Part shown: in pieces, positions 1,311 through 63,561 of the stretch
Layout: each line of letters opens with the position of its first letter
Numbering within the stretch: position 1 is the first letter of the stretch
DNA from: Haloarcula marismortui ATCC 43049
GTDB taxonomy: Archaea; Halobacteriota; Halobacteria; Halobacteriales; Haloarculaceae
Direction: 5' to 3'
Assembly (NCBI RefSeq): GCF_000011085.1
Contig: NC_006393.1
Coordinates: 1 to 64,000, forward strand
DNA: 64,000 nucleotides
The notes under the pieces: model-generated
Database searches by the model: none
Told to the model about the DNA's origin: nothing
The model's input: the letters and a program-made list of their open reading frames with translations, nothing else
Made by a program: the position numbers and the translations under genes

Positions 1311-1983
1311 TCTTTCGCTCTCTCCCGATGGTGCCGTCGACCAGATGGACGGTTCGGTCGACGTACTCATTGACCAGATCGTCATGGGTGACTGCGACGA
1401 TTGCCACGTCGTCCTCGTCGGCGATGCGGCGGAACTCGTCGAGTATCTGTCGCCCGGTCTCGCTGTCGAGATTGCCCGTCGGCTCGTCGGCGAGTACGAC
1501 CTTCGGGCTGTTGATGAGCGAGCGCGCGATGGCGACGCGCTGCTTCTGGCCACCGGAGAGTTCGTCGGGCTTGTGATCCAGTCGGTCGTCGAGACCGAGC
1601 CGCTCTAAGAGCGTTCTGGCCCGCTTTGTGACTTCCGGGTCGCTGTCCAACAGCAGAGGGACCTCGACGTTTTCGACGGCAGTCAGCGTCGGCAGGAGAT
1701 AGAAGTGCTGGAACACGAAGCCGACCGTCCGCTTGCGGAGCGCGGTCCGCTTGCTGTCGCCGAGACCGGTCACATCCTGCCCCTCCAGCAGGACGGTCCC
1801 TTCCGTCGGCGTATCCAGCAGCCCAAGGGTATTCAGCAGGGTTGTCTTGCCACTGCCGCTGGGGCCCATAATCGAGACGAACTCGCCGGCCTCGAGGGCG
1901 AAATCAATACCCGCCAGCGCGTAGAGGGTCTGACCGCCGGTACGATAGCGCTTGACCAGTCCCTGTGCGTCGATGACCGTCAT
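1300..1983 (-). CDS. ABC transporter ATP-binding protein, MacB/LolD family
   Basis: Protein of 227 aa, full length for this family. Walker A GPSGSGKT lies at 40-47, the Q-loop in FQHFYLLP near 91-98, the signature LSGGQ at 142-146, Walker B VVLADE at 162-167 and the switch histidine at H200. Sequence type and length are those of LolD/MacB ATPases that pair with FtsX-like permeases. It overlaps the upstream CARDB gene by 4 bases (ATGA) and the downstream permease gene by 11. It is predicted to energise the neighbouring permease from the cytoplasmic face. Confidence 0.96.
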   Translation of the reverse strand: MTVIDAQGLVKRYRTGGQTLYALAGIDFALEAGEFVSIMGPSGSGKTTLLNTLGLLDTPTEGTVLLEGQDVTGLGDSKRTALRKRTVGFVFQHFYLLPTLTAVENVEVPLLLDSDPEVTKRARTLLERLGLDDRLDHKPDELSGGQKQRVAIARSLINSPKVVLADEPTGNLDSETGRQILDEFRRIADEDDVAIVAVTHDDLVNEYVDRTVHLVDGTIGRERKNGG

Positions 1984-3506
1984 ACCTCGATTTCATCGTC
2001 ACCACTTCGGTAGCGGCGCACGAGGACACCAACGACGACCAGTAGCGCCAGTCCGCCAGCGATGAACACCGGCAGCATACTGTTCTGATCACCGCCCCCG
2101 TTGTCGCTGTCCTGCTCGGACTGCTGTGCCGAACCGCCCATCCGGTCGAGGTTGACGTCGAACGTTTGTCGCTTCCGCGTGTCGTCAACGAGATATGTCA
2201 CCTCCAGTGGCACCGACGTGACATTCCCCTCCGTCCGTGCGTACACGTCGAAGGAGACGAAGTCACTGGCCGGAACCGTCCCGACGAAGTAGTCACGGTT
2301 TGGCGTCGCCGGGGTGACGTTCTCGGTATCGGCGACGCTGACGAGGACGCTGTCCGCATCTGTCGAGCCGACGTTGCTCGCACTCCCGGAAATCTGGAGG
2401 CGCCCGCCCTGACGGATCACGTCCAGCCCGGTGAGGTCTATCGTCCCTGGGACGGACCGGAGCGTCGTTTCGGCGGTCGTCCGCTCCGTTTCTGTCCCGA
2501 GTTCGTACTCGGCTGTGACGGTGACGTCCGCCCGAGGTTCGTCCGTCGTGGCGTTCAGTCGCACTTCTTGGGTCGTGCTAGTTGAGATATTCTCGAGCAG
2601 TACGCGCTGGAACGACGCGTTCGCAGACGTTGCATTGACAGTGACATCTGAGAGCGGCGCGTTGGCCCCGTTAGAGACGGCGACTCGCAGCGCGCGGTCG
2701 GTGCCGCTGCCGACTGCAGTCGTATCGAGTTCCACGCTGTTCCGGAGTGGGTCTGAGTCGATGACTTTCGTCTGGGTCGTAGTGCGCGTGATGTCGTCAC
2801 CGACCGTGTAGCTGACCGTCGTGGTCAATTTGTGCTCTCCAGAGGACTCTGGCCGGAACCGGAATGGGGCGGTCATAGAACCATTCTGAGAGATACTTGA
2901 CGCTACTGTTCTGCTCTGTGTCATTTCAATGTCGTCGCCCTCAACGACGATCTCGACATTTGTTATCTGGGAGTCAAGACCGTTTGCGACCGTGACTTCA
3001 CCGGTCGATTCGACGCCGGCAACGGAATCGTTAGCTGTGAGGTCCATCTGCGGGTGACGCTCTTCAACGTTCAGTTGTACCGGATATTGGAATTTGACGC
3101 TCGTGCCTGTCCCGGGGTCGCGACCGTACACGATGACACGGAGATCTTTCGTCCCTGCCGAGTCAAACGTCGCCGTCAATGGCACTTCCAACGTGCTGCC
3201 CGGCGAAATCGAGCCTAGATTCGAGGCACGCTCGATAGCACTCAAGTCAGAGCGCCGGATCACGATGTCGTTAATTTTGAGCGGTGCATCACTACTTTCG
3301 AGATTTCGGACTGTCGCGTGAAATGTGACGGGTTCACCTGGTGCTGGTGATGAAACTGAGATGTCAACGTCTGCGATGGAGGCGTTGATGTTTGCACCCG
3401 CGACAGATACAGGAAATAATCCGACAACAATAAGACAAGCGAGTACGGCTGCAGTACCTCGCGTCACGTAGGTTCCCCCCTCAAAGGGAGTTTTATGTCG
3501 AACCAA
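1980..3506 (-). CDS. Exported CARDB-repeat membrane protein of the ABC operon
   Basis: Protein of 508 aa. The N-terminus has a signal peptide (hydrophobic core AAVLACLIVVGLFPVSVAGA). Several Ig-like CARDB/NEW3-type repeats follow (phrases such as SSPAPGEPVTFHATVRN). Near the C-terminus there is a Ser/Asp/Asn-rich linker, one membrane helix (MLPVFIAGGLALLVVVGVLV) and a short cytoplasmic tail RRYRSGDDEIEV. Most of the protein should lie outside the cell. It is first in the operon and overlaps the ATPase gene by 4 bases. I infer a role as extracellular partner of the permease, comparable to MacA adaptors but unrelated in fold. A GTG at codon 14 (VTRGTAAV) is an alternative start. Confidence 0.88.
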   Translation of the reverse strand: MVRHKTPFEGGTYVTRGTAAVLACLIVVGLFPVSVAGANINASIADVDISVSSPAPGEPVTFHATVRNLESSDAPLKINDIVIRRSDLSAIERASNLGSISPGSTLEVPLTATFDSAGTKDLRVIVYGRDPGTGTSVKFQYPVQLNVEERHPQMDLTANDSVAGVESTGEVTVANGLDSQITNVEIVVEGDDIEMTQSRTVASSISQNGSMTAPFRFRPESSGEHKLTTTVSYTVGDDITRTTTQTKVIDSDPLRNSVELDTTAVGSGTDRALRVAVSNGANAPLSDVTVNATSANASFQRVLLENISTSTTQEVRLNATTDEPRADVTVTAEYELGTETERTTAETTLRSVPGTIDLTGLDVIRQGGRLQISGSASNVGSTDADSVLVSVADTENVTPATPNRDYFVGTVPASDFVSFDVYARTEGNVTSVPLEVTYLVDDTRKRQTFDVNLDRMGGSAQQSEQDSDNGGGDQNSMLPVFIAGGLALLVVVGVLVRRYRSGDDEIEV

Positions 3507-6400: not shown

Positions 6401-8032
6401 GTGATCTATAATCACGTACGTTCTATTGCGGTTGCAGCTATTCTTTCTGCCGTGCTTCTTGGTTCAACTATCGCTCCAGTAACTGCACAAACAGCGGGGA
6501 ATTCTGGACAAGTAATTGGATCTCCAGATATTGATCTCAATGCCCCCACCCAAGAGTTTGAACCAGGGACTCAGGCAGAACTTAGGCTTGAAATAGTAAA
6601 TAGAGGCTCAATTAGAAAAGGAGGCCCTGCAGAGTATGAAAATCGCATCACAACCGCTCGTGGTGTCACAGCCGATGTTAAATCTGGATCCGCACCAATT
6701 GAAATAAATACTGGCTCAGTCAGCATCGGAAATGTACCAACAGGGACAGCATCAGCTCCACCTGTGAACATCACGATCAAGGATAGTGCGGAACCAGGGA
6801 CATACCGAGTTCCGGTCAAAATCAGCTATGCATCTACTCGGAGTGTCAATTACGATAGCTTTGGACCCGAATACAACGATTTCGACCGGAGTCGAACAGA
6901 ATATGTGACGATTCGTGTGCGCAGTCAGTCGCGATTCGATATTGTCGACTCAACAACTACTTCACAAGTCGGTGACCGCGGAAATCTCACTGTAACGATA
7001 GAGAATGTTGGTGACCGAGCAGCACGGGACGCGAGCGTTGCTGCAGCGTCTTCCAGCGATGAACTTCTCTTTGGGACCGGATCGAAGAGTTCAACGGCAA
7101 ATATCGGGTCGTGGGAGCCAGGCGAACAACGCGTCATCGAATATACCGTTGAAATGGTTGACGACGCTACACTTCGAGCATACTCTGTTGATCTCACGGT
7201 GAACTACCGCGACATCGACGGGATTGACAGGTCCTCTCGACCGCTAACTACCGGAGTGCGACCGACTGCTGAGCAGTCTTTTTCAGTTACAAACGTCTCA
7301 ACAAATCTTCGCGTCGGTGAAGAAGGAACAGTTTCGGGAACAGTTGTTAACAACGGGCCCGATGCGGTTACAAATCCAGTCGTGATGTTCTCTCCATCCA
7401 ACCCAAACATTGTAGTGGACTCCTCAGAATACGCGATTCCTGACATTGCTCCAGGTGAGCGTGCTAACTTTGAGTACACCGTAACGGTAAGTGACGCAGG
7501 AAGTGCCAGCGTTCAGCAATTCAATCTCACAACTCGTTATCGGAACACCCGCGGCGATGTGCAGAGAAGTGATGGATTAGAGACAAGAGCAAGAATTGAA
7601 CCCAAGCGCGACAGATTCATTATTAAAACTGCTACAGATGAAATTGCGGCTGGGAGTGACCAAGCCGTAACGATACAAATTACGAATAACGGTGAGCAAC
7701 CACTACAAAACGTCGAAGCAAAGGCGTTTGTTGAAAGCCCCCTATCCAGTGATAACGATGAGGCGATTGTCACATCGCTGGCGGCAAATGAAACAGCCGA
7801 AGTTACCATCGCACTCTCTGCAGCAAGTGGTGCGTTGCCGAAAACATACCCAGTCTCACTTGACTTCCAGTACGAAATGCCAGATGGCGACTCTGAAGTC
7901 TCGAAAACATATACCACCGCAATTGTCGTAACAGAACCTGAAGACAGCGGCTTCCCACTCCCTCTTATCTTGGGCGTGTTCGTCATTATTGGGGTCGCTG
8001 GAATCGGTGGCTGGCGGCGGTGGTCAAGCTAA
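6401..8032 (+). CDS. Exported CARDB-repeat protein paired with MMPL transporter (module 1)
   Basis: 543 aa. Signal peptide (AVAAILSAVLLGSTIAPVTAQ), then several Ig-like CARDB/NEW3 repeats of about 100 residues, then a C-terminal membrane helix (PLPLILGVFVIIGVAGIGGW) with a short basic tail. The mature N-terminus begins with VIGSPDIDL, a motif shared with the proteins at 55762 and 61912. The start is GTG at 6401 with AGGTGA just upstream. Only 3 bases separate it from the MMPL gene. I infer an extracellular, membrane-anchored partner of that transporter. Base composition is lower in GC than the plasmid backbone. Confidence 0.9.
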   Translation: MIYNHVRSIAVAAILSAVLLGSTIAPVTAQTAGNSGQVIGSPDIDLNAPTQEFEPGTQAELRLEIVNRGSIRKGGPAEYENRITTARGVTADVKSGSAPIEINTGSVSIGNVPTGTASAPPVNITIKDSAEPGTYRVPVKISYASTRSVNYDSFGPEYNDFDRSRTEYVTIRVRSQSRFDIVDSTTTSQVGDRGNLTVTIENVGDRAARDASVAAASSSDELLFGTGSKSSTANIGSWEPGEQRVIEYTVEMVDDATLRAYSVDLTVNYRDIDGIDRSSRPLTTGVRPTAEQSFSVTNVSTNLRVGEEGTVSGTVVNNGPDAVTNPVVMFSPSNPNIVVDSSEYAIPDIAPGERANFEYTVTVSDAGSASVQQFNLTTRYRNTRGDVQRSDGLETRARIEPKRDRFIIKTATDEIAAGSDQAVTIQITNNGEQPLQNVEAKAFVESPLSSDNDEAIVTSLAANETAEVTIALSAASGALPKTYPVSLDFQYEMPDGDSEVSKTYTTAIVVTEPEDSGFPLPLILGVFVIIGVAGIGGWRRWSS

Positions 8033-8035
8033 TCC

Positions 8036-10543
8036 ATGGATTTCGAGCTCAACTACCAGCGGTATATCGACATTGCAGACCACTGGATTGCGGATCGGCC
8101 AAAACAGGTTATCCTCGTTTTTTTGATCCTGTCAGGCGTGTTTGCGACTGGCCTTGGGCAGTCTGGCACAGAGTCTGGGACCAGTCAATTTGTCGACGAT
8201 GTTCCGGCAGCCGATGCGTTGGACGAAGTAAACAACAACTTTGAGCGAATCACATTTGAGGGTGACACAGGGACGACACAGCTAATCCACTCAGGCCAGA
8301 ATGTCTTGTCGAAGCCAGAATTACTGCGGATGCTTCGAGCGCAGCATCGGCTGTCAAAGAACCCTGAGATACAGGTCGAATCCACCACAAGCGTCGCACA
8401 GGCAGTTGCCAGAACCCTTGATCCGTCTGCAGAAACATTCGAAGAGCAGATCCGTGTCGTTGAAACCGCGGCACCGAGTGAGATTGACCAAGCTGTGCAA
8501 ACAGCCGCTGAGCGAAATCCACAATTTCGGGCCAGTCTCAGTAACGACTTCAATGCTCGTTCAGCCAGCGCTTCGGCAACAATCGGGATTGTTACACATC
8601 AACTGCAAACCGAAACCGACAGCGGTCCAGGTAGCAGCGGATCAAGTCCACTCACTAGTATACAGCAACAAGCAGTCTTTATTGTTGATTCCGTCGGCGG
8701 TGACATCACTGTTTTCGGCAGTGGCCTCACATCTGAAGAGCTGTCATCAGTGATAAGCGATTCACTAGCTCTAGTAGTACCCGCTGCAGTCGGACTGATC
8801 CTGTTTTTCCTTATCATCGCTTATCGCGACCCTGTCGACCTTCTATTAGGTCTGGTAGCGTTAGCGATGGCAATTCTCTGGACGTTCGGCTTTATGGGCC
8901 TGGCAGGCATCGCGTTCTCACAGCTGTTAATTGCAGTCCCTCCCCTGCTACTTGCGGTCGGGATTGATTTCGGCATTCATGCGATTAATCGCTACCGTGA
9001 AGAGCGGATCCAGGGATACGGGATTCAAGAGTCAATGCGGACCACTACGGATCAGTTGCTCGTCGCATTTGCTATTGTCACTGGGACTACTGTGGTCGGC
9101 TTTGCTGCAAATATGAGTAGCCCATTGGGATCGATTCAAGACTTTGGCATCGTCGCTGCCATCGGCATTGTATTTACATTCCTCATCTTTGGAGTGTTTC
9201 TTCCTGCAAGCAAGGTCTATGCTGATCAATTATGCCAGCGATATCCGATTCCGACGTTTGGGTCACAACCGATGGGTTCGGAGGACTCACTACTTGGACG
9301 GGTTCTTTTGGCTGGCGTACACATCGGTAGAGCAGCTCCAAAGACCTTCGTCATCGTGCTGGTACTCAGCACAGCGTGGGTTGGTGTCTATGGCTCTGGA
9401 GTTGAGTCGCGGTTCTCGCAGGATGATTTTCTGCCACCCGAAGAAAATCCAGAGTATCTGGAATACTTACCAGCAAGTGTACAGCCAAGTGAGTACACAG
9501 TGACAGAAACAACGAATTTCCTTGAGGATCGGTTCCAAACTGGCGAGGAAGATACAACAACAGTGTACGTTGAAGGGTCATTAACAGATGATGGAGCGCT
9601 TGAATCTATGTACCGCGCAGGAGACTCTCCACCGGATAGCTTCATCGTTGATGACGGTCATGCCCGTGAAACGTCTATTATTACCGTTATACGATCGTAC
9701 GCTGATCGAAGTCCCGAGTTCGCTGCACTTGTCGCCCAAAATGACCGGAATGCAAACGGGATTCCAGATGATAACTTGGTAACAATCTATGATGCCTTAC
9801 TTGATTCACCAGCGCGAGGACAGGCGCTGAATTATATTACCGACGACTATACGTCAGCGCGTATTGAGTACGCTGTTGAAGCCGACGCAACACAGGATGA
9901 AGTGACTTCTGACACTCGCACTGTTTCGGATCGCTTCCGGTTTAAAGCAACCGCAACTGGCGGCGTAATTGTTCTCAAAGCAGTTTCAGACGTGATTGGT
10001 GAGTCAGCGTTGATTAGTCTCGCTCTTGCTCTCGTGGGGTCTGGTATCTTTCTTATTATCGCGTATGCCGCGCTCGAAGGCCGGCCCCTTCTTGGGGTAG
10101 TTAACCTCCTACCTATTGCGATCACTGTTGCTGGCATCGCTGCAACGATGCGTTACCTTGGGATTCCATTTAATGTCCTAACGGGAACCATCCTCTCGAT
10201 CGGGCTTGGGCTTGGAACAGACTATTCTGCGCACCTGATCCACCGGTTCTCAGAAGAATATGAACGAGGTACAGATGTCTTTATCGCACTCACTACTACA
10301 GTCCGCGGTACTGGTGGAGCGCTTACCGGTTCGATGTTAACAACAGTATCAGGAATCGGGGTGCTCGTAATTGCAATCACACCAGTGCTTGGACAGTTCG
10401 GCATATTGACCGGGCTGACAATTCTTTACTCGTATCTTGCATCGATAATTATTGTCCCCTCTGCACTTGTGATCTGGTCCCAATTCGTTGAATCTGATAT
10501 CACTCGGTTCCTGTCTGGAAACAACTTTCGGGTGAATCAATGA
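8036..10543 (+). CDS. MMPL/RND-superfamily transporter (module 1)
   Basis: 835 aa with two similar halves, each a large extracytoplasmic loop followed by a bundle of helices, about 12 membrane segments in all. The helix-4 motif GIDFGIHAINRYREE and the helix-10 motif GLGTDYSAHLIHRF keep the aspartates expected to carry protons in MMPL/HpnN-like transporters. Co-transcribed with the CARDB gene 3 bases upstream. The substrate is unknown; lipids or other hydrophobic compounds are typical of the family. The first residues (MDFELNYQRYIDIADHWIA) are cytoplasmic. Confidence 0.93.
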   Translation: MDFELNYQRYIDIADHWIADRPKQVILVFLILSGVFATGLGQSGTESGTSQFVDDVPAADALDEVNNNFERITFEGDTGTTQLIHSGQNVLSKPELLRMLRAQHRLSKNPEIQVESTTSVAQAVARTLDPSAETFEEQIRVVETAAPSEIDQAVQTAAERNPQFRASLSNDFNARSASASATIGIVTHQLQTETDSGPGSSGSSPLTSIQQQAVFIVDSVGGDITVFGSGLTSEELSSVISDSLALVVPAAVGLILFFLIIAYRDPVDLLLGLVALAMAILWTFGFMGLAGIAFSQLLIAVPPLLLAVGIDFGIHAINRYREERIQGYGIQESMRTTTDQLLVAFAIVTGTTVVGFAANMSSPLGSIQDFGIVAAIGIVFTFLIFGVFLPASKVYADQLCQRYPIPTFGSQPMGSEDSLLGRVLLAGVHIGRAAPKTFVIVLVLSTAWVGVYGSGVESRFSQDDFLPPEENPEYLEYLPASVQPSEYTVTETTNFLEDRFQTGEEDTTTVYVEGSLTDDGALESMYRAGDSPPDSFIVDDGHARETSIITVIRSYADRSPEFAALVAQNDRNANGIPDDNLVTIYDALLDSPARGQALNYITDDYTSARIEYAVEADATQDEVTSDTRTVSDRFRFKATATGGVIVLKAVSDVIGESALISLALALVGSGIFLIIAYAALEGRPLLGVVNLLPIAITVAGIAATMRYLGIPFNVLTGTILSIGLGLGTDYSAHLIHRFSEEYERGTDVFIALTTTVRGTGGALTGSMLTTVSGIGVLVIAITPVLGQFGILTGLTILYSYLASIIIVPSALVIWSQFVESDITRFLSGNNFRVNQ

Positions 10544-11716: not shown

Positions 11717-12496
11717 ATGAGCGATAACGAAGCAACTGAGTCATTGAAAGAGCTAGGGTTATCAACGTATGAGGCACGCGTGTTCATTACACTCGTTGAG
11801 ATTGGGAGCGGGACTGCCCGTGAGATAGCTTCTGTAACCGACGTTCCCCGGCCGCAAGTATACACGACAGCACACGATTTAGAGAGTCGCGGGTTCATTA
11901 GCATCCAGCAGTCGAATCCACAGGTATTCCAACCTGTTTCACTGGATGAAGCAAAAGCACAGCTTGAAAATCGGTTTGAAACTCAGCGTGATAGTGTGTT
12001 TGATTATCTTGAGTCGTTGGAACCTGCTACTGGAAACGAAGCCGAAGAGAACGAAGATGTCTGGTCAATTACTGGAAAAACAGCTATTACCGAGAGGATT
12101 GCTAAACTAGCTTCCGAAGCGAACCAAACAATTCTATATGGTAGCCCAGACCTTGTTGACCCAAGCCCAGATTTGGTAACAGCACTGGAAGCAGCGTGTG
12201 AGCGTGGTATCGGCGTCACACTACTTGCAAAGAGCGGTCAGACAATCGATAGTTCGTGGATCGATAATGACAATATCGACATATTTTATTCTTCCCAGGT
12301 CAATCAAAGTAACGAGTATGCTGAGCGGATTCTGATAGTCGACCTTGACGTGTTTTTACTTAGTATTCGCGGCGGCAAAGCAGATGATGAAACCGCCGTT
12401 TGGAGTGCGCGGACCACTTTCGCACAGATATTCTGCCAATTAACAATTGGGAACTTCGAGGAAATTACCACAGAGACTCAGATAAAGTCACCATAG
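11717..12496 (+). CDS. TrmB-family transcriptional regulator
   Basis: 259 aa. An N-terminal winged helix (LGLSTYEARVFITLVEIG ... VPRPQVYTTAHDLESRG) is followed by a short coiled region and a C-terminal TrmB ligand-type domain (ITERIAKLASEANQTILYG). It lies downstream of CARDB/MMPL module 1, from which an IS now separates it, so it may control that module. The regulators near modules 2 and 3 are TetR-type instead. Confidence 0.9.
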   Translation: MSDNEATESLKELGLSTYEARVFITLVEIGSGTAREIASVTDVPRPQVYTTAHDLESRGFISIQQSNPQVFQPVSLDEAKAQLENRFETQRDSVFDYLESLEPATGNEAEENEDVWSITGKTAITERIAKLASEANQTILYGSPDLVDPSPDLVTALEAACERGIGVTLLAKSGQTIDSSWIDNDNIDIFYSSQVNQSNEYAERILIVDLDVFLLSIRGGKADDETAVWSARTTFAQIFCQLTIGNFEEITTETQIKSP

Positions 12497-42172: not shown

Positions 42173-42589
42173 TCAGCGAGTGATTGTCACCGGAGCAGGT
42201 GCTTTCCGCATAACTTGCTCTGCAACGCTACCGACAAGCAACCGCTGAATACCATCGCGACCGTGGCTTCCCATTATCACTTGATCTATATCTTCATTTT
42301 TGACTGTTGCAATAATTGTCTCAACTGGGTCACCGACCACGACGCTAGTTCGAATTTTCTCGGGACTCATGAATTCGGCCTGCGCATCTTTTAAGAGTGA
42401 CTCTGCTTCTGCCTTAGCTTGTTTTTCCCAGCTTCCATCGTCATCACCACTGTAACCAGCGAATCCATCAGCAGGGTCGATAACAGTCAGAAGCGTAATG
42501 TTTGCATCAGGGAACACAGTTTGAGTGTATTTGACAGCTTCTTGTGCTGGTGCTGATCCGTCAACCGGAACGAGGATTGTTTCAATCAT
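42173..42589 (-). CDS. Universal stress protein (UspA family)
   Basis: 138 aa, full length. N-terminal MIETILVPVDGSAPAQEAVK with the conserved VPVDGS; C-terminal ATP-binding signature GSHGRDGIQRLLVGSVAEQV (G-2x-G-9x-G-S type). Overlaps the upstream truncated MMPL gene by 8 bases. The same overlap exists at 59615-59622, so MMPL and UspA were originally one operon. Confidence 0.93.
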   Translation of the reverse strand: MIETILVPVDGSAPAQEAVKYTQTVFPDANITLLTVIDPADGFAGYSGDDDGSWEKQAKAEAESLLKDAQAEFMSPEKIRTSVVVGDPVETIIATVKNEDIDQVIMGSHGRDGIQRLLVGSVAEQVMRKAPAPVTITR

Positions 42590-42881
42590 CGGCTTCTCTC
42601 ATATTCCTTTTCATTGGGAGATATTTATTTTCACGGGCTCTCTCGAGTGCGTCTGACAGGCGGCCAAGAATAATTAGTGTCGGTGGAAGAGTCGCAAGGG
42701 CAGCAACAAGAGTGAGGAAAATGACACCGGCAGTTAATGACCCAAAGTCAGCTAAAATTGGGAGCGGTGACAGAGTAAGTGCAGAGAATCCGAACACTGT
42801 CGTCAGTCCGGAGACAGTAATTGCCTTCCCAACACGTGATCCAGCAGTTTCGACTGCATTAAGTCTCAGTACTTCACGAAG
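42582..42881 (-). pseudogene. C-terminal fragment of an MMPL/RND transporter
   Basis: About 95 codons: LNAVETAGSRVGKAITVSGL, TTVFGFSALTLSPLPILADF and FLTLVAALATLPPTLIILGR match the end of the complete transporter at 59615 almost residue for residue. The 5' portion is replaced by repeat element copy C at about 42882. Confidence 0.82.
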
Positions 42882-48100: not shown

Positions 48101-48173
48101 GCGGTGCCATCATCTGAATCGTTCTATTGTAGTTATCATATAACAATACCAGTTGAGAATCTCTGAGAGGCTG

Positions 48174-53230: not shown

Positions 53231-53290
53231 TCCTCTAAGCTATTTCCCACGGGCGGGAAGCCGCGCCGTGAACGGCGCGGAGGATGTCAC
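53231..53290 (+). ncRNA. IS200/IS605-type right end with omega-RNA-like hairpin
   Basis: CCCACGGGCGGGAAGC is followed by a hairpin CCGCGCCGT/ACGGCGCGG (53261-53280) and GAGGATGTCAC. This is the usual 3' end of haloarchaeal tnpB elements, where the guide (omega) RNA scaffold and the sotRNA transcripts lie. No tnpB or tnpA remains. It abuts the MMPL gene and supplies its stop codon. Confidence 0.5.
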
Positions 53291-55758
53291 ATTGGGGTAG
53301 GCAGGGTAACTTCGGACCACACACTCTGGTAGCGCTCCCATAACAGGACTGCGGGAGGCAGCGCGATGATAGTGAACGCAAATGAGTAGATAACACTTAT
53401 TGCCATCAATAGACCGAAGTCACCTAAAACAGGTGTGATAGCGAGTGCAAGCGCACCCGTCCCGAGTGACGTTGTGAGCATACTTCCGAGCAGAGCTCCA
53501 CCTGTTCCTGAGAACGTGATAATTATCGACTCATAAGCGTCTGCGCCAGCATTATACTCATCGACAAACCGGTGAGTGGCGTGGACTGAGTATGCTATCC
53601 CAAGCCCAATTGAGATCGAGAGTATTGTTCCTGTTAATGCGTTCAATGAGATGCCGAGATATCGCATCGTCCCAAGTAGGAACGCGATTGCAAGCAGGAT
53701 CGGGAAGAGGTTTACAATCCCCAGTAGCGGCTTGTCTTCTAGTACGGCGTACGCAATAATAAGGAACAACCCGGTTAGTCCCATCGCGATAATCAGTCCC
53801 TGAATTGAAGAGTTGAAAATAATACCCGTCACCGCATCGAAGACGACTATCTGGCCAGTTGCGGTCGTCTCGTATCGGAATTCCTCTGCAAATGCTCTGG
53901 CGTCGGTGGCAGCTTCGGACTGTGAGGCCTCCGAGTCAATCGCGTATTCGACCTGTGCGCTCCGCCGATCTGGGGTGAGGTACTGTTCAGCACGGTCACC
54001 AGCCGGCGAAGCAAGCAGCACATCGTAGATACGATCAAGATTACGGTCGGGGATCCCATTTCCGTTCACGTCGTTACGAGCAACCAATCTGGCGAATTCT
54101 TGATCCTGCTCGGCATATGACTGAATCACTGTCACGATGCTTGTCGGCCGAGCAGATCCGCCGTCGCCGACTGCGAGCGAGCCTGTCGCGTCATCGTTCG
54201 GCGCTGCGAGTGCCTCAAGTGCATGGCTCTCCTCGAAGTTCCCCTCAACGTACAATCTCACTGACTGGTCCTGATTGGTTGAGAAGCGGTCCTCAAGCAG
54301 ATTGAGTGTCTCTGAGACGGTATACTCGCTTGGGGCGAACGGCTCTGGAAGCCCAGTCACGTACGCAGGCTGTTCTTCCGGTGGAAGGAAGTCCTCGGTT
54401 TCGAAGGAAGTGTCGACGCCACTCCCGTACATCGCTGCCATCCCACCGGTTATGAGCAACACGACAACGAATGCGATCGGCGCATACCGGCTAGCTTGGG
54501 CCGGGAACGTCAGGAATTTTCCGAGCGTCGAGTCCTCGGAAGAGATCGGTGCTGAGTTGAACTCAGGGACGTTGTAAGCTTCTCGCAGCCTGTCGACTTC
54601 TAACTTCGCTGCCGGGAGAAACAGCCCGAATATCAGGAATGTGAAAATAATCCCAATCCCTGAGGCGATCCCCATATTCCGGATTGGTGTGAGATCAGAT
54701 ACTACGTTTGCACCAAACCCGAACACGGTTGTAACCGTTACAATGACGAAGGCGATTAGCAGTTGGTTATTCGCTTCCCGCATCGCCTCTGTAGCATTGT
54801 ATCCTGCGACGGCCTCCTCACGGTAGCGGTTGATGATATGGATCCCGAAGTCAACTCCAACCGCGAGTAGCAGTACAGGGACGGTGATCATTTGCTGACT
54901 AAATGGAATCCCGGAGAAGCCAAGGAATCCGAACGTCCAAATGATGGTCAGCAGAAGCGACAGCAAACCCAAGGAGAGGTCAATTGGATCACGGTAAGCG
55001 ATAACCAAGAACAACAGCAATAACAGCACGACAACGGGCATCACGATGGTAAGTGAATCCCCGATGACGGTGGCTGTTTCAGCGTTTGTTACGCCGCTAC
55101 CGAAGGCGGTTATTTCGCCAGGCTGGTCAGATGCGATAGATCGAATCGTTATCTGTACTTCTTGAAGATTGCTGTCAGAGAATCCGGAGGGCACATCGTG
55201 TGATATAAGCGTGATTGACGCTGAGGCACTTGCGCTCGTCGGGTTAAAGTCAGTTGCAAGCGTCCTGGTAAATCGTGAGTTGTCGGACAATTCACGAACG
55301 ATTTTTTCGATGCGACTTGCACTCGTCGACTCGATAGCGCGTCGTTGTTCGGCTGCCGTGTCCGCTGAGGGGTCAATCTGCTGAGCAATGACCGTTGCCG
55401 GGCCATTCGCTGAGGCGGCACGGAGATTGTCCCGCGACTCAACTTCCTCTAAAACCCGGAGATCCCTGAGAAGTGCTTCCCTCGTCAGGACGTTACTTCC
55501 CGAGTGGATGAGTTGAGTAGATTCACTCTCCGGTTTGAACGGATCTTCAAATTCTTCATTGACTGCATCAAGCGCCTCTTGTTCCTCAAGACCGTCGGTG
55601 AACGAGTCAGTCGCTTCAGTATCTGTGCTGACTAATCCTACCCCGCCAGCGAATACAAGCGTGAGCACGAGAAAGCCGACAATGACTTTACGTGGACTGT
55701 CGACGATGGTGTTATTAAGCCGCCGCGTCAACACCTCTATCTGCTTGTCAAGCGACAT
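53287..55758 (-). CDS. MMPL/RND-superfamily transporter (module 2)
   Basis: 823 aa, same two-half layout as the protein at 8036. Helix-4 motif GVDFGIHIINRYREE is kept, but helix 10 reads GLGIAYSVHATHRF, with Ala where the module 1 protein has Asp. Starts 3 bases after its CARDB partner. Its TGA overlaps the IS200/IS605-type end at 53290, so the last residues may have been replaced. Confidence 0.93.
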   Translation of the reverse strand: MSLDKQIEVLTRRLNNTIVDSPRKVIVGFLVLTLVFAGGVGLVSTDTEATDSFTDGLEEQEALDAVNEEFEDPFKPESESTQLIHSGSNVLTREALLRDLRVLEEVESRDNLRAASANGPATVIAQQIDPSADTAAEQRRAIESTSASRIEKIVRELSDNSRFTRTLATDFNPTSASASASITLISHDVPSGFSDSNLQEVQITIRSIASDQPGEITAFGSGVTNAETATVIGDSLTIVMPVVVLLLLLFLVIAYRDPIDLSLGLLSLLLTIIWTFGFLGFSGIPFSQQMITVPVLLLAVGVDFGIHIINRYREEAVAGYNATEAMREANNQLLIAFVIVTVTTVFGFGANVVSDLTPIRNMGIASGIGIIFTFLIFGLFLPAAKLEVDRLREAYNVPEFNSAPISSEDSTLGKFLTFPAQASRYAPIAFVVVLLITGGMAAMYGSGVDTSFETEDFLPPEEQPAYVTGLPEPFAPSEYTVSETLNLLEDRFSTNQDQSVRLYVEGNFEESHALEALAAPNDDATGSLAVGDGGSARPTSIVTVIQSYAEQDQEFARLVARNDVNGNGIPDRNLDRIYDVLLASPAGDRAEQYLTPDRRSAQVEYAIDSEASQSEAATDARAFAEEFRYETTATGQIVVFDAVTGIIFNSSIQGLIIAMGLTGLFLIIAYAVLEDKPLLGIVNLFPILLAIAFLLGTMRYLGISLNALTGTILSISIGLGIAYSVHATHRFVDEYNAGADAYESIIITFSGTGGALLGSMLTTSLGTGALALAITPVLGDFGLLMAISVIYSFAFTIIALPPAVLLWERYQSVWSEVTLPTPM

Positions 55759-55761
55759 CAG

Positions 55762-57411
55762 CTATTGCTGCCTCCGATAGATGACGAGCGCCGCCGTTCC
55801 AATAACGAGGAGCGCAACGGCGATAACTGGCAACGGTAGCCCACCCTCTTGGCTTTCGATTACATCAATTGGAAGTCGGTAAGTCTTGGTGAGATGGCTG
55901 TCGCCTTCGGTGTCGTCATATCGGAAGTCCAAAGAGATAGGGTAGGTACTCCCCACTGTTGCAGACCCGGTGGTAGTCAACTCGAACGTCACCGTTTTTG
56001 TCTCACCCGGGTCAAGTGACTGAACGTACCCCGTGTCGGTATCTCCCGTGTCTAACGGATCGTCGGCGAACAGTCGGACCTCGACATCGCTTGCGACTTC
56101 GTTGAGGTTGTTCGTTACTGCAACATCGACAGCACGGGAACCACCTGCTTGGATAGTACGGTTTTCAATCGTGGCATCAAAGCGATCGCGCTCAGAAGCA
56201 ACCTCGGCGTCTACAGCCAATTCATCGAAAGTCCTTGTCTCACCTTCGTCGTTGCGGTATTTGATGGCCATGTCAAGTGAACGGAGCCCAGACTCGGCGC
56301 TACCGCTGATTGCAATCGGCAACGAGAAAGACTCAGATTGACCGGGATCAAGCGTTCCTACGGCAGTTGAATCTTCCGTTGGAATCACACTCTGGTCCTC
56401 CCCAGTGTACTGTACCACGACGTTGCGTGCCGGCAGGGGCCCGTCGTTGTGTACGGTACCAATCAAGTCACCGTCCTCACCGACACGAAGTTGTGACTCC
56501 ACGTTACTAAGTATGAAATCCTGCTCGCGGATCGATTGGACCGTGGTCGTAATCGGGTCTGATGTTCGGTCAATTCCATCGATATCATCGTAGTTTATTT
56601 TCAAGTTAACTGAATACCCTCGTACAGGAGCGTCGGACTCAAGTGCAGCGTTATAACTGACAGTCCGGATCTCCCCTGGTTCCCAGTCGCCGACAGATGC
56701 TGTCGAAGACGTATCTCCGGATTCGAACGTTAGCGAACTACTCTGTGACTCTGCATTGATATTTGCACCTCTCGCGATTTCTGAGCCGGTGTTCTTGAGT
56801 GTGAACGAGACATCATTGTTATCGCCAACCTGCGTTGTCGCATTTGCTTCAACAATCTCAAACCGAGCATCTTCCCGAACCTGAACTGTTATTGAGCCAG
56901 TTTTCGTTTTTGTGGAGTCGCTTCCCTCAGTAGGTCCACTGGGCCCATAGCGAATATGGCGGGTATATGAATACTCGTAATTGACTGGGAGTTTATATGT
57001 TCCCGGTTCAGCATTGTCTGGGACTATAACAGAGACAGTCTTTTCTATACTTCCAGTTGGAAAGTTACCAACAGATACCTGTCCAGTTTGGACATCAATT
57101 GGAGTATCCCCGTCATCTATCTCAAAGGATAGTCCTCTAGCAGTCATAACACTATCTTCGTACTGCGATGGACCATGCTGGATAATCTGACCGTAATTAA
57201 CAATCGAAACTGTGAGCTCATCGGCGGTGTCGGCTGATAACGGCTCAGATGAAGTTGTAAAAGTGACATCTGGGTTTCCAACAACGTCCCCAGATTCTGA
57301 TGCCTGAGCAGTTGCAATACTGGGGACCGCACTAACAACGAATCCCACGAGTAAAACGGCAGTCAGGACGGTGGTTAACGACGGCGGGTTAGGAAGTGTG
57401 TTCTGTGTCAT
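55762..57411 (-). CDS. Exported CARDB-repeat protein paired with MMPL (module 2)
   Basis: 549 aa. Signal peptide (TVLTAVLLVGFVVSAVPSIA), mature N-terminus VVGNPDVTF, Ig-like repeats such as VSFTLKNTGSEIARGANINA, then helix PLPVIAVALLVIGTAALVIY and tail RRQQ. Same plan as at 6401 and 61912. The TetR gene at 58087 is divergent from it. Predicted to act outside the cell with the transporter encoded next. Confidence 0.9.
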   Translation of the reverse strand: MTQNTLPNPPSLTTVLTAVLLVGFVVSAVPSIATAQASESGDVVGNPDVTFTTSSEPLSADTADELTVSIVNYGQIIQHGPSQYEDSVMTARGLSFEIDDGDTPIDVQTGQVSVGNFPTGSIEKTVSVIVPDNAEPGTYKLPVNYEYSYTRHIRYGPSGPTEGSDSTKTKTGSITVQVREDARFEIVEANATTQVGDNNDVSFTLKNTGSEIARGANINAESQSSSLTFESGDTSSTASVGDWEPGEIRTVSYNAALESDAPVRGYSVNLKINYDDIDGIDRTSDPITTTVQSIREQDFILSNVESQLRVGEDGDLIGTVHNDGPLPARNVVVQYTGEDQSVIPTEDSTAVGTLDPGQSESFSLPIAISGSAESGLRSLDMAIKYRNDEGETRTFDELAVDAEVASERDRFDATIENRTIQAGGSRAVDVAVTNNLNEVASDVEVRLFADDPLDTGDTDTGYVQSLDPGETKTVTFELTTTGSATVGSTYPISLDFRYDDTEGDSHLTKTYRLPIDVIESQEGGLPLPVIAVALLVIGTAALVIYRRQQ

Positions 57412-58086
57412 TTTGCGTTTACTAAGTAATCAATCAAAAGGTGCGGGTGCATATTACCCTGTTGGTTTCGGTCACCGGACTGACCGACACATAAAACCGG
57501 ATCAAGAGAGGCTCTATAAAAATCCACTGAACCCCCGGAGCCTGAAGTACGTCATGGAGTCGTGAAAGTCAGCCTACGACAGACACCTCCGAGTACGGGA
57601 GCGTCACAGGGTCAGATGAGAAGGAACAGTAAAATGCGAATCGCAACCCAACTGACCAACAACGGTGCCTCTCGCCGCACCGAATTACCTCAAAGGACAG
57701 GCTGTGGCCGTATCTCAGGGGCTCTAACTCCACAGGCGGACTCTTACAAATCTAGTCAAGACGCGTTCAAGAAAATCGTTCGAGCTGTGCCTTGATTCAC
57801 CAATAAGGTCTAGACGTAAGCGCCCCTATAATCTGGACAGGCGCAATGTCACGGCCACATAGAAGAGGATCCGACAGTCTCGTGCACTCCGATAGAACAG
57901 TGGTCAACAATATGCTTAAGTTAGCCGAATGAATAATCAATTATACAGCCATCTGCGGCTTGTACTCGCTATTCAGCACAATGATAAAAAACATAACTCA
58001 GTTTGACCCTGTGTCATACGCAGTGGGTAATAGAGCCGTGAGCAGTTTGAACCGTCCCAGACAACCAAAAAATAGTCGGGGTAAAG
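57412..58086. other. 675-bp divergent region with decayed DNA
   Basis: Should contain the promoters of the CARDB and TetR genes. The centre (57480-57800) has short coding-like pieces, for example GRISGALTPQADSYKSSQDA, but no intact gene. From 57900 on it is AT-rich. Confidence 0.4.
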
Positions 58087-58686
58087 ATGACTAACGAGAT
58101 ATCCTTCTTCCAGAATCCAGAGGGAACCCAAGAAGAGATTCTTGAAGCTACATTCTATGCATTACGTCAGCACGGGTACGCGGACCTAACTATTTCAAAA
58201 ATAGGCGATGAATTCGAAAAAAGCCAGTCACTCATATATCACCACTACGATAATAAGGACGAATTGCTAGTAGATCTTCTGGACTATATGTTGGAGCAGG
58301 TCGAAAGCCAGGTCCCACTTCCCAACCAGTCGCCTGAAGAGTATATCGAAATAATCGTTGACGAGATGTTTGGCACCAACGGCAACAACAATCTCGAGTT
58401 TACCCAGGCTATAATTGAACTGCGAGCGCAAGCAGCACACGACGACAATTACGGCCGCCTCTTTCGTAGGAGTGATGATTTCATTCGGAAACAAATTGCA
58501 CGTGCTATCCGGGCGGGCGTCGATGCAGGCGCATTCGATGTCGAGAATCCATCCCAAACAGCCGCGCTGTTCCACACCGTTTTAATCGGTATTCAGACAG
58601 AGCAGATTACAAGCGACGAGGAGCCCATCGACTACACCAGAGCCGAGTTCCAGCGCTACATCGAGAACTGTTTATTCCCTGAATGA
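58087..58686 (+). CDS. TetR-family transcriptional regulator (module 2)
   Basis: 199 aa. N-terminal HTH EEILEATFYALRQHGYADLT, ISKIGDEFEKSQSLIYHHYD; ligand-type helical C-terminal domain. Divergent from the CARDB/MMPL module 2, hence probably its repressor, with an unknown hydrophobic ligand. Homologous to the partial gene at 63698. Confidence 0.92.
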   Translation: MTNEISFFQNPEGTQEEILEATFYALRQHGYADLTISKIGDEFEKSQSLIYHHYDNKDELLVDLLDYMLEQVESQVPLPNQSPEEYIEIIVDEMFGTNGNNNLEFTQAIIELRAQAAHDDNYGRLFRRSDDFIRKQIARAIRAGVDAGAFDVENPSQTAALFHTVLIGIQTEQITSDEEPIDYTRAEFQRYIENCLFPE

Positions 58687-58693
58687 CCTCCTC

Positions 58694-59577
58694 CCCGCCG
58701 CGGGCTCCACCTGCTCCATAATGTCACTGGCCAGACGATTGATCGGTTCAGCATCACTGACGAGAAAGCGCACGACGGCACCGAGTTTTCTACGGGATCA
58801 TGGCTAAAAGATCGGTTGGTACTGTTCGATCAAGCGTACTTCAAGTACCGCCGTTTTGCGCTGATTGACGAGAATAACGGATACTTCGTGAGTCGGCTGA
58901 AACCGAACGCAAACCCGAAAATAACAGCGGAATTACGGGAATGGCGTGGCGACGCCATTCCATTGGAAGGGGAGAAGATCCAGGATGTCGTGGACAACCT
59001 CTACCGAGAGCACATTGATGTAGAAGTGGAAGCGACGTTTCAGCGACGAGAGTACGCGGGCACACAATCATACGACAGCAAGACGTTTCGTGTCGTCGGC
59101 GTCCTCATCGCAGACGCCGACAACTACCATCTGTACATTACGAATCTCCCGAGAGAGGAGTTTCTGCCAGCAGATCTAGCAACGATCTATCGATGTCGGT
59201 GGGAGGTAGAACTGCTGTTTCGTGAGCTGAAGACGCAGTACAACTTGGATGAGTTCGATACGAGTAAGACGTATATCATGGAGATCCTGATATATGCGGC
59301 GTTGCTGTCGCTGTTAGTGAGCCGTGATCTGCTGGGTCTGGTCACCGAACAAGCCGACGACGAAATCGTGTTTCCGCCGGAACGCTGGGCGGCGACCTTT
59401 CGATCGCACGCCCAGCTCATCCTCTTTGAACTCGGTGAGTACCTCGGCTACTCGCCGCCATCGTTGTTAGAGCGGCTGATCGAGGATGCTCAGAAAATTC
59501 ACCAGCAACGACCGATACTGCAAGAGACGCTCGCCACCGCTGCATAACCGAGGTGTGAGGCCTAACTAAAGACGAAT
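58694..59577 (+). pseudogene. ISH8-like element lacking its 5' part
   Basis: Coding similarity begins at about 58704 (LHLLHNVTGQTIDRFSITDE) and runs to the stop at 59547; the frame has DRLVLFDQAYFKYRRF and YRCRWEVELLFRELKTQYNL. The right end CTAACTAAAGACGAAT is present, the left end is missing. It cuts the UspA gene at 59578. Confidence 0.88.
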
Positions 59578-59622
59578 AGCTTGCGGTGATCCGTCAACTG
59601 GGACAAGGATGGTTTCAATCAT
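59578..59622 (-). pseudogene. 5' stub of a UspA gene
   Basis: From ATG 59622: MIETILVPVDGSPQ, then the ISH8-like end. It matches the first 13 codons of the UspA gene at 42589 and overlaps the MMPL stop by the same 8 bases. Confidence 0.75.
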
Positions 59623-61897
59623 CGGTTTCTGATGGCACTATGTTTCGTGAAGCTGCTTTATCTGCGCGGACTGACTCAATCTTATCCGAGAGACGCCCAA
59701 GGGCTATAAGCGTCGGTGGTAGGGTTGCCAGAGAGGCAATGAGGGTGAGGAAGATGACACCCACAGTTAGCCACCCGAAGTCAGCTAGAATAGGGAATGG
59801 TGATAGCGTGAGTGCTGAGAACCCGAAAACAGTGGTCATCCCAGACACGGTAATCGCTTTGCCGACACGCGATCCGGCGGTTTCGACTGCATCAAGCCGG
59901 GAAATACCAGTCTGTTCGACCTCTTCGAAGTAACGTTCCATTACGATGATCGTGTATTCTGCGCCGATGCCGACACTCATTGCGCCAAGAGACGCACCAA
60001 GTGGCGACACCGATATTGACAGAGCTAACATATAGAGATTTTGCCAGCCGATGACAAATAGCATCGGGACAAGCGGGGCAACAGCCCGAAGCAGGTTTCG
60101 ATAGTAGAGGAGTAATGCCCCAAAAACAAGGGCAAATCCAAGCCCAGTCGTTGCATTCCGATTTTCGATCTGCTCAACGATCGATGGTGTCGATACGGGT
60201 GATTGCCCTGTAAGCTTGGCATCGACTCCGGATGGAGGCTGACTTAATGCGATTGATGTCTCAATAGTGTCGAACAAGCCAAGTTCCTCGTCGGTGTTCA
60301 TGTCTTGTTCAGCAGTTATCCGGATCTGTGCATGGCCGTTGCTGTAATACTGGGCTTTTTGATCGTCTGGGATGGCTGCTAAAGTCTGTCTAACCTCACG
60401 TTCTGTCTCTGGTAGTGTTCCGCCATTATGCTGTTTAATCAGCGTTGCTGGTGTCGAGACACTGGTAATTTGTTGCTTATCACTGGCGATGACGCGGAAC
60501 CTCTCCATCCAGCGTAACACGTCTGGGTCGCGCAATTGTTCCCCACTAACAAGAATGCTGTACTGAACGGCATCACCACCCCCAGCGACAGATCGAAACT
60601 CCTGGAGATCGGTATAGGCCGGCAGGTCCTGTGGAATGAATTCCTCAGTATCCGCAGTCGTTTCTAGATCAGAACTGACCGCAAACCCACCAGCTGCGAC
60701 AACAATCGCAATAGAGAGAACAATGAAAGGATTAGCTGCAAGAGTGCGTGATGTCCGCCCGAGTGCCTGTCCAAGACGGCCAATGTTACTGCTTCCGGTC
60801 TGTTCCTGTGGTGGGAACTCCGACTCATGGGAGGGACTGGCCTCCTCTTCAGATGTGCTACGGAAGCGGACCCAGAGTGTGAGGACTGGCAAGAGCACAA
60901 ACAATCCAGTGATAAATGTTAGCACCACACCGAAAATAGACGTTTGTGCAAACCAGACAAACGCTGGTGATCCGATTGTGGAAACCCACGTTGCTCCGAA
61001 TCCAAGTGCCGCTGAGAACATCGCAACTAGAACGGGTGGGCCAACACCACCCAATGCTAGTGGCAACGCTTCGCGTGGGCGGTGATTTTCAAGCTCTTCT
61101 TCGTACCGTTCATGAAACTGTATAGAATAGTCAATTCCCAATCCGATCAAAATTGGGAACACAGAACTGGTCAACGTTGAGTTTGGGATACCTGCGTACC
61201 CAATCGCTCCAAACGTCCAAATTACACCGACAAAGACCGCAACTATCGGGAGCAAGCGGAGTCGAACACCCCGGAACAAGAAGAATAGGGCGATAACCAT
61301 TAGCCCTACAGCTAACCCGAGCAACTGCTGCGTGCTCTGCTGAATGAGTCCCGAAAGTTGCGACGAGAACGCTGCTGAACCAGTAATTGTAACGCTCACG
61401 CCGCTCGGAAATTCCCCCCATTCTTTGGCATTAATAGCATCTGTATAAATAGGCCGGGATTGTTGCTGTGTAAGCCCGGGTTCAAGAACGATGGTAACTA
61501 CCGTTGAGTCTGGATTCCCAACAACCCGCTGTATTTTTTCTTGTGATCCAGGAATACGGCCATACTCTGCTCGCACTTGATCAGCAGGGCTGATTACTTG
61601 TTCAACGTCATCAACTTCGGACATTCGTCGATCATATCGATCGATAGCCCGCATTGTCGCGGGTTCTGTAACCTCTCCCCGCACAAGGGTAGCAATCGTC
61701 CCGCGGTCGAAATTATCATCATACGTATTTAATGTGGGATTTTCACCGACAAATGCGCGGTCCCCGGTGACACTTTCAATCTGTGCGGCACCGGAAAATG
61801 CTATCCCAGTGACAACAACTACGGCTGTGAGCATGATCAGTGGCCGACTCTGAATGAGTCGTCCAAGCCGTGCAAATATCGTTCGCAAGCTCATCAT
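59615..61897 (-). CDS. MMPL/RND-superfamily transporter (module 3)
   Basis: 760 aa, shorter than modules 1 and 2. Two halves of six helices; helix 4 GLGIDYSIQFHERYEEE and helix 10 GIGAEYTIIVMERYFEE, with Glu replacing Asp in the second. Follows the CARDB gene by 14 bases and overlaps the former UspA gene by 8. The truncated gene at 42582 is its closest relative here. Confidence 0.93.
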   Translation of the reverse strand: MMSLRTIFARLGRLIQSRPLIMLTAVVVVTGIAFSGAAQIESVTGDRAFVGENPTLNTYDDNFDRGTIATLVRGEVTEPATMRAIDRYDRRMSEVDDVEQVISPADQVRAEYGRIPGSQEKIQRVVGNPDSTVVTIVLEPGLTQQQSRPIYTDAINAKEWGEFPSGVSVTITGSAAFSSQLSGLIQQSTQQLLGLAVGLMVIALFFLFRGVRLRLLPIVAVFVGVIWTFGAIGYAGIPNSTLTSSVFPILIGLGIDYSIQFHERYEEELENHRPREALPLALGGVGPPVLVAMFSAALGFGATWVSTIGSPAFVWFAQTSIFGVVLTFITGLFVLLPVLTLWVRFRSTSEEEASPSHESEFPPQEQTGSSNIGRLGQALGRTSRTLAANPFIVLSIAIVVAAGGFAVSSDLETTADTEEFIPQDLPAYTDLQEFRSVAGGGDAVQYSILVSGEQLRDPDVLRWMERFRVIASDKQQITSVSTPATLIKQHNGGTLPETEREVRQTLAAIPDDQKAQYYSNGHAQIRITAEQDMNTDEELGLFDTIETSIALSQPPSGVDAKLTGQSPVSTPSIVEQIENRNATTGLGFALVFGALLLYYRNLLRAVAPLVPMLFVIGWQNLYMLALSISVSPLGASLGAMSVGIGAEYTIIVMERYFEEVEQTGISRLDAVETAGSRVGKAITVSGMTTVFGFSALTLSPFPILADFGWLTVGVIFLTLIASLATLPPTLIALGRLSDKIESVRADKAASRNIVPSETDD

Positions 61898-61911
61898 CGT
61901 ATTATCTGAGA

Positions 61912-63561
61912 TTAATTTTGCCGTCGGTATACAACGATAGTGCCACCGACAAGTGCAGCCATCCCAACCGCAGCCGCCGGAATTAGTGGGAACCCACCGG
62001 AATCGGCTGCACGAACTGGGACGCCAATGGTAAGTGAGCCAGTAAAGCGTGTATCTCCGTCGGACTCATCGTACCGAATCTCAACTGATGAACTATACTC
62101 TTTTGTTAGGGCAGTATCGGAAGCACTCACTCGAAACGTTGCAGTTACAGTCTCACCGGGCTCAACAGTGCCGAGATAAGCACCATCGTCTGAAGACGAT
62201 AGCGGGTCATTAGTGAATAATTTGATATTCGCGTTCGTTACTGTTTCATTTCCGGTGTACCTGATCGTAGTTGTCATCTCGCCGCTGCCACCCGGCGTTA
62301 CTGTCGTATTTGTTCCGATAACTTGGAATCGGTCACGCTCCTCACCGATGACGACACGCTGCCGAAGTGGTGTCGACGGTCGAAGAACATCGCCAGCATC
62401 GTTTTCATATTCAAGATCTAATGGAACAGAAATTGAGCCCGGCTCTGCTTCCTCGGGGATATTAACTGTGAACGACACCTCAGCGGATTCACCAACAGCC
62501 AGATCACCGACTGCCGCTTCACCGCTAGTTACTGTGAGTGGAAGCTGCTCCTGTTGGCCGATGCGAACGACCATATTCTGTGCAGGTGCTGGCCCCTCGT
62601 TCGTAATGGTAGCTTGGAGTGTTGCTTCAGGTTCATCTACTCTGAAATCGGTTGCCTGAACCTCACTGATTTCAAATGATCGGTCTGCTTGGACAGTAAA
62701 ATTCGCTCGCGCAGTATCAGCTGTCTCTGTTATGCCGTTTCCGTTTTCGAACTCAATTGTTGCTGTGACTGGATATGTGCCCAAGTCTACATTTTCATTG
62801 GCACCCATTCGAACACTCACCGTTGTGTCTTCCCCAGGTGCCAGTGAGCCAATCGAACGAGCGGTATTCTGTGAAGGGCTTGCTGCCTTTCCGAAGAACG
62901 TTCCTTCAGTGGTCGTAGTGAAAGTGACCTCAGCGTTCGTTGCGGCGCGTGTCCCGGTATTCTCAACGGTATAGCGAACCATACCGTTGTCACCTGCGAT
63001 GATACTGTCTTTACCTACCCTTGTGACATTAAATCGGGGTTCATTTTCAACTTCAAGAGTTATGTCTCGGACAACCTCTCCTGAGCGCGTTTGCCGTTCC
63101 GTGTCGTCAAGTGGTCCGAAACTTACCGCTCGCGTGTGCGAATATTCGATTACGACTGGGACCTCATATATACCTGGTTTGGCGTTGCCGACCTCAATCC
63201 TGAAATCAAGCGGCACCTGCTGGCCGTCAGCAATGGTCCCAATTGTCTGTTTACCTGATTTTACTTCAATTGGTGCGTCGAGCTTATCATCCTGTATTTC
63301 AACCTGAACATTTTTTGCACGCTGTACTTCCTCTTCAAACGCTGCTTCGTTGCCCTTTCTGAGTTCACCATCATTGACAAGGACAACTTGCAATGATTGG
63401 GCTGATTCAGCGCTGACGACTGGTTCCGGTGTCGAAGCACTGATTCCCGGCTCGCCAATGACTACCGAATCCGCTGCTACCGGCGTCGCCATGCTGAGAA
63501 GTAAGCAAGCGCAAATAGCGATGCTTACCCATTTAGTCGAGTAGAACTGCGATAGACTCAT
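61912..63561 (-). CDS. Exported CARDB-repeat protein paired with MMPL (module 3)
   Basis: 549 aa. Signal peptide (WVSIAICACLLLSMATPVAA), mature start VVIGEPGIS, CARDB/NEW3 repeats (VRYTVENTGTRAATNAEVTF), C-terminal helix FPLIPAAAVGMAALVGGTIV and YRRQN tail. Divergent from the TetR gene at 63698. Same inferred role as the other two. Confidence 0.9.
   Translation of the reverse strand: MSLSQFYSTKWVSIAICACLLLSMATPVAADSVVIGEPGISASTPEPVVSAESAQSLQVVLVNDGELRKGNEAAFEEEVQRAKNVQVEIQDDKLDAPIEVKSGKQTIGTIADGQQVPLDFRIEVGNAKPGIYEVPVVIEYSHTRAVSFGPLDDTERQTRSGEVVRDITLEVENEPRFNVTRVGKDSIIAGDNGMVRYTVENTGTRAATNAEVTFTTTTEGTFFGKAASPSQNTARSIGSLAPGEDTTVSVRMGANENVDLGTYPVTATIEFENGNGITETADTARANFTVQADRSFEISEVQATDFRVDEPEATLQATITNEGPAPAQNMVVRIGQQEQLPLTVTSGEAAVGDLAVGESAEVSFTVNIPEEAEPGSISVPLDLEYENDAGDVLRPSTPLRQRVVIGEERDRFQVIGTNTTVTPGGSGEMTTTIRYTGNETVTNANIKLFTNDPLSSSDDGAYLGTVEPGETVTATFRVSASDTALTKEYSSSVEIRYDESDGDTRFTGSLTIGVPVRAADSGGFPLIPAAAVGMAALVGGTIVVYRRQN

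Follow-up and report, generated by a model that had tools for sequence, protein, structure and literature searches.

A plasmid of Haloarcula marismortui ATCC 43049 (NC_006393.1) carries, within the 64,000 nucleotides analysed here (positions 1 to 64,000, hereafter the window), three gene pairs that each join an exported protein with CARDB/NEW3 repeats, here called the partner, to an MMPL transporter of the resistance-nodulation-division (RND) type. Partner and transporter together are strongly supported as a repeated functional module, because their genes are associated genome-wide, are inherited together and keep a conserved spacing. As to what the module does, we lean slightly towards an RND (MMPL) exporter with a dedicated accessory subunit, a bitopic protein of immunoglobulin-like (Ig) repeats that would work like MmpS while belonging to neither the MmpS nor the HlyD family.

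Results

Three gene pairs in the window

The original prediction had placed three complete pairs at 6401-10543, 53287-57411 and 59615-63561, with 3-14 bases between an exported, C-terminally anchored CARDB-repeat protein and an MMPL transporter. The open reading frames (ORFs) confirm this arrangement, with gaps of 3, 3 and 14 nt and both genes of each 3-nt pair in one frame; Pfam detects CARDB/NEW3 repeats in every partner and MMPL in every transporter, all above cut-off, and the C-terminal transmembrane (TM) helix is likewise found. The genes are as follows.

6401..8032, plus strand: copy 1 partner, 543 aa, with signal peptide, four Ig-like (CARDB/NEW3) domains and, at the C-terminus, a TM helix followed by a basic tail
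8036..10543, plus strand: copy 1 MMPL/RND transporter, 835 aa, identified by Pfam, AlphaFold2 (AF2) model and PDB match
55762..57411, minus strand: copy 2 partner, very probable counterpart of HVO_A0466, 549 aa, by Pfam and 58% identity to the L072 partner (see below)
53287..55758, minus strand: copy 2 MMPL/RND transporter, very probable counterpart of HVO_A0467, 823 aa, 64% identical to that of L072
61912..63561, minus strand: copy 3 partner, 549 aa, by Pfam CARDB/NEW3
59615..61897, minus strand: copy 3 MMPL transporter, HAE3 family (TIGR00921), 760 aa, 430.5 bits

A G-x-P motif at the mature N-terminus, also foreseen, is present in all three partners, and across 46 homologues its P never varies and its G shows a conservation of at least 90%; residues between the domains are conserved as well. 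The C-terminal helix predicted for all three partners was found in each, whereas the basic tail, expected in only two, contains Arg in every copy (RRWSS, RRQQ, RRQN).

Judged by their sequences, the three transporters are of more than one type and only copy 3 is a true HAE3 member. HAE3 is a family defined by the transporter alone, and against its cut-off of 351.9 bits copy 3 lies above at 430.5 and copies 1 and 2 below at 196 and 189; the copy 3 transporter is only about 20-25% identical to the other two.

The copy 1 partner was modelled by AF2 (pLDDT, the predicted local distance difference test, 89.7; pTM, the predicted template modelling score, 0.63) as a chain of beta-sandwich domains ending in a helix at 521-541, a predicted layout of four Ig domains and a C-terminal TM of the HVO_A0466 type. 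The pTM fits a flexible rod. Fold matches in the PDB were generic Ig-chain proteins, with no adaptor among the matches listed, and no solved homologue was found by PDB sequence search at E 1. The copy 1 transporter model (pLDDT 88.2, pTM 0.85) matched 8zkp (MmpL5/MmpS5) best in Foldseek, followed by MmpL4 and NPC1-type proteins. Together with the MMPL Pfam matches and the residues D311 and Y730, invariant in 49 homologues, this gives it the RND/MMPL fold with its two porter loops. We take D311 and Y730, by analogy with MmpL3, to be the TM4/TM10 Asp/Tyr relay of proton-driven transport.

Strength of the pairing in Halobacteria

The H. marismortui genome holds five intact MMPL genes and five partner genes, all of them paired. 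A survey of 26 Halobacteria genomes, with 46 partner genes and 68 full MMPL genes, found the partner directly upstream of an MMPL gene in 39 cases (39/46 partners, 39/68 MMPLs). Random gene order would give about 0.04 such pairs, and the chance association that the original prediction had named as its refutation is thus ruled out. Exactly 3 nt separate the two genes in 44 of 78 pairs, and a C-terminal TM is found in 76 of 78 halobacterial partners. Distance matrices of partners and MMPLs are correlated (Mantel r 0.76 overall and 0.88 in the main clade; 0 of 5000 permutations), a correlation that includes shared species history and that backs co-inheritance, being no proof of contact.

Not any CARDB protein will serve as a partner. 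Six generic CARDB proteins of the H. marismortui genome fail the partner profile, and by the searches used none of the six has an exporter neighbour.

A pair already described in Haloferax

The CARDB/MMPL pairing as such is already described, in a 2024 report on Haloferax volcanii (PMC11349517), and the statement in the original prediction that no system of this kind was known does not hold. There, HVO_A0466 (an 'RND-T-associated protein') and the RND permease HVO_A0467 are encoded by genes overlapping by one base, alongside two more paralogous pairs; HVO_A0466 is glycosylated and probably secreted, with an Ig fold and one TM at its C-terminus, and HVO_A0467 rises 44-fold under iron starvation (PMC11349517). 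The same work reports partner–RND adjacency across 21 haloarchaeal genomes with matching trees of both proteins, and its authors consider a functional interaction likely (PMC11349517).

In our set this pair can be recognised at a Haloferax alexandrinus locus, L072, whose transporter holds the published HVO_A0467 peptides IYDELFASSASGR (578-590) and ATSTGDVVVR (632-641) at agreeing positions and whose two genes overlap by one base, as published. Identity to the L072 partner is 58, 37 and 28% for copies 2, 1 and 3 (copy 2 over 550 aa), and to its transporter 64, 48 and 26% (copy 2 near full length, copy 3 over the aligned part only). A divergent TetR gene lies upstream at L072 too. The 64% and 58% identity, both peptides and the overlap at L072, and the divergent TetR at both loci make it very probable, to judge from sequence, that copy 2 corresponds in H. 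marismortui to HVO_A0466/67. Gene order, tight spacing, an Ig-fold rod with C-terminal TM, an MMPL transporter and haloarchaeal spread are common to the published pair and those of the window, although copies 1 and 3 differ from it in sitting on other branches. In the main text of PMC11349517 we found nothing on relatives linked to ABC or MFS exporters, on pairs from outside the haloarchaea or on coiled-coil MMPLs forming a class without partners.

Transporters without a partner, and pairs outside Halobacteria

On a tree of 69 MMPLs the paired or solo label needs three changes against a shuffled mean of 22 (0 of 500 shuffles as low): 26 solo transporters group in a single clade, and the other two (L098, L105) are isolated losses. 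The first extracellular loop spans 141-194 aa in 41 of 41 paired MMPLs and 195-381 aa in the 25 measured members of the solo clade (L156, which is broken, was left out), and the second loop is likewise longer in the solo clade; loop length and partner state are both confounded with clade, and their association is not independent evidence. Many solo-clade MMPLs carry long heptad-like inserts, often coiled-coil, and many have a TrmB-type regulator directly behind. In the partnerless haloarchaeal MMPLs of L081, L083 and L085, very long, repetitive coiled-coil inserts separate TM1 from TM2.

The paired/solo pattern holds beyond Halobacteria. There, at least 29 of 36 short MMPLs adjoin a partner, on either side, and none of five MMPLs of about 1200 aa does so among the matches listed. 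Both the partnerless long-loop clade and the pairing beyond Halobacteria appear to be without an earlier report in the literature searched. Two variants of gene content were noted here: an MMPL whose two halves are encoded by separate neighbouring genes (about 370-425 aa each) with a partner gene alongside (L211, L218, L223, L230), and a single MMPL gene flanked, on one side or both, by two or three partner-type genes (L189, L190, L192, L197, L198, L216, L224, L225).

Relatives beside other exporter classes

Seven Halobacteria relatives of the partner do not adjoin an MMPL. Six of these adjoin an ABC-2 ATPase and permease (ABC, ATP-binding cassette), downstream on the same strand in five cases and divergently in one (L164); the seventh stands alone (L158). 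A further 60 loci came from other Halobacteriota and were selected by an MMPL-partner profile, so that MMPL is over-represented in the counts: 29 adjoin an MMPL (4 with a split transporter), 14 a MacB-type ABC exporter, 4 a drug-type exporter of the major facilitator superfamily (MFS; a fifth is weak) and 1 another ABC system. Neighbour classes were assigned by phmmer against representatives that Pfam had confirmed. The C-terminal TM and basic tail are kept across the partner classes. In a partner tree built by a quick method, ABC-2-linked proteins fall inside the MMPL-linked group at two or three points and MFS-linked proteins form one clade, the MacB-linked proteins being long branches of unsure placement.

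That related anchored proteins stand beside ABC-2, MacB-type ABC and MFS exporters appears to be new here; no earlier report of linkage to several exporter classes was found in a literature search that reached few subscription papers.

Discussion

Haloarchaea have no outer membrane, and the original prediction had reasoned that RND adaptors were for this reason not to be expected. That premise is weakened by the MmpS/MmpL system, in which RND assembly depends on MmpS, itself anchored and Ig-like. MmpS5 is an Ig-like single-TM protein required for MmpL5 trimerisation and pump activity; it is predicted to span MmpL5 protomers, and its paralogues cannot replace it (PMC12501195). Like the archaeal pairs, the mycobacterial MmpS4/5-MmpL4/5 operons join a single-TM Ig-like protein to an MMPL RND transporter, and a siderophore link is common to them and to the HVO_A0466/67-type pair. 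We propose that the partner works like MmpS because it has the same kind of parts as MmpS5, in another order. It is no member of the MmpS family by the searches made, having no Pfam match to it and no PDB sequence match at E 1. MmpL5 itself bears a coiled-coil, whereas in archaeal MMPLs a coiled-coil insert and a partner were not seen together.

On this reading, which we put at slightly better than even, each pair is an exporter with its own accessory subunit. Physical contact, stoichiometry, direction of transport and substrate we infer as follows. The accessory protein would be secreted and held by one C-terminal helix with its C-terminus inside, and its ectodomain, a rod built of Ig-like domains, would project into the pseudoperiplasm beneath the S-layer. 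The helix would pack on the transporter and the Ig domains would touch the porter domains, stabilising the assembly of the exporter, possibly as a trimer, and giving substrate, once released, a route that leads off the membrane. For copy 2, homology to HVO_A0467, which iron starvation induces, suggests that the substrate may be a siderophore.

A comparison with HlyD/AcrA can also be drawn. In both cases one family, encoded beside the transporter, is linked to RND, MacB-type ABC and MFS exporters; the archaeal partner differs in having a C-terminal anchor and no outer membrane to reach. An HlyD-type adaptor in the strict sense is ruled out, as no HlyD, lipoyl or alpha-hairpin domain occurs in the Pfam/NCBIfam scans, the AF2 model or the listed fold matches. 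That the partner is a functional substitute for RND adaptors, as was originally suggested, is plausible by analogy, and the idea gains support because other exporter classes carry such a protein. More generally, anchored COG1361/CARDB Ig-repeat proteins could be an archaeal equivalent of the HlyD/AcrA adaptors that needs no outer membrane. RND (MMPL), ABC-2, MacB-type ABC and MFS exporters would then have taken up members of a single homologous family on repeated occasions, and in one MMPL clade extended extracellular loops, often containing a coiled-coil of their own, would have taken its place. This wider proposal is tentative, and we rate its chances as a little under even.

Several observations weigh against the accessory-subunit reading. 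MmpS is anchored by a TM at its N-terminus and has a single Ig domain, the archaeal partner a C-terminal TM and four or more such domains. Deletion of HVO_A0467 gave little phenotype (PMC11349517). The isolated losses L098 and L105 are MMPLs of the paired clade that lack an adjacent partner gene. Among the 60 Halobacteriota loci, in four (L182, L188, L200, L236) the gene of a partner-type anchored protein is followed directly by one for a cupin-type glucose-6-phosphate isomerase, with no exporter, and in seven no exporter neighbour is clear or the contig ends at the locus.

Three alternatives should be considered. The Ig-repeat protein might be a structural tether that holds the exporter in place under the S-layer, or shields it there, and links it to the lattice, taking no part in transport. 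The long, C-terminally anchored rod of the copy 1 model, the annotation of some homologues as 'COG1361 S-layer family' and a number of Ig domains that varies from four upwards, as for a spacer, would all suit such a role. Close co-inheritance with specific transporters, however, and the conserved G-x-P and inter-domain residues suggest specific contacts, and a generic tether should need no separate gene per exporter; we regard a tether as unlikely, though still worth keeping in view. The protein might instead be an extracellular receiver, carrier or sensor of an exported lipid, siderophore or drug, beside an exporter complete on its own. Ig-like domains are often ligand binders, and the non-haloarchaeal loci with two or three partner genes per MMPL (L189, L190, L192, L197, L198) would be in keeping with this, but no obvious ligand domain or catalytic residue appeared in the Pfam/NCBIfam scans and the fold matches listed are of generic Ig chains only, which makes such a role decidedly improbable. 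Mere co-regulation in an operon, with envelope or iron stress inducing both genes and no functional contact, draws on the TetR and TrmB regulators that adjoin part of the pairs and is very improbable, being exceeded by gene order and strand kept over deep divergence, by co-inheritance and by recurrent links to several exporter superfamilies.

Were the wider proposal of a shared accessory family true, single-membrane archaea would own an exporter accessory family, exporter partners would have roles beyond that of a bridge to an outer membrane, and a large group of 'S-layer family'/CARDB proteins would gain a function. The proposal is directly testable in the genetically tractable Hfx. volcanii.

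Neighbouring genes and remnants

Other features of the window that bear on exporters or their regulation are listed here.

58087..58686, plus strand: TetR-family regulator, divergent from copy 2, by family search
10632-11624: IS5-type transposase gene, between copy 1 and the TrmB-like regulator
11717..12496, plus strand: TrmB-like regulator, downstream of copy 1, by family search
42585..42866, minus strand: remnant of a fourth MMPL gene of the copy 3 type, the last 96 residues, 75% identical to the copy 3 transporter
1980..3506, minus strand: a further CARDB-type anchored protein, the fourth of the window, encoded directly upstream of a MacB-like ABC exporter
1300-1983 and 177-1553, minus strand: ATPase and FtsX-type permease of that MacB-like ABC exporter

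The TrmB-like regulator is of the family found directly behind partnerless MMPLs elsewhere, and the ancestral order at copy 1 may have been CARDB-MMPL-TrmB before the IS5-type insertion. An iron (DtxR-type) operator upstream of copy 2 was also sought; the one site, at 57916 with two mismatches, is no more than chance would give. The CARDB-type protein beside the MacB-like exporter is only distantly related to the MMPL partners (17 bits). No partner gene or partner remnant was found beside the MMPL remnant, which adjoins a universal-stress-protein-like gene. Elsewhere in the window, the ORF at 48153-48926 (plus strand) has repeated TPTPESTPTA units, a low-complexity linker, and probably encodes an exported protein.

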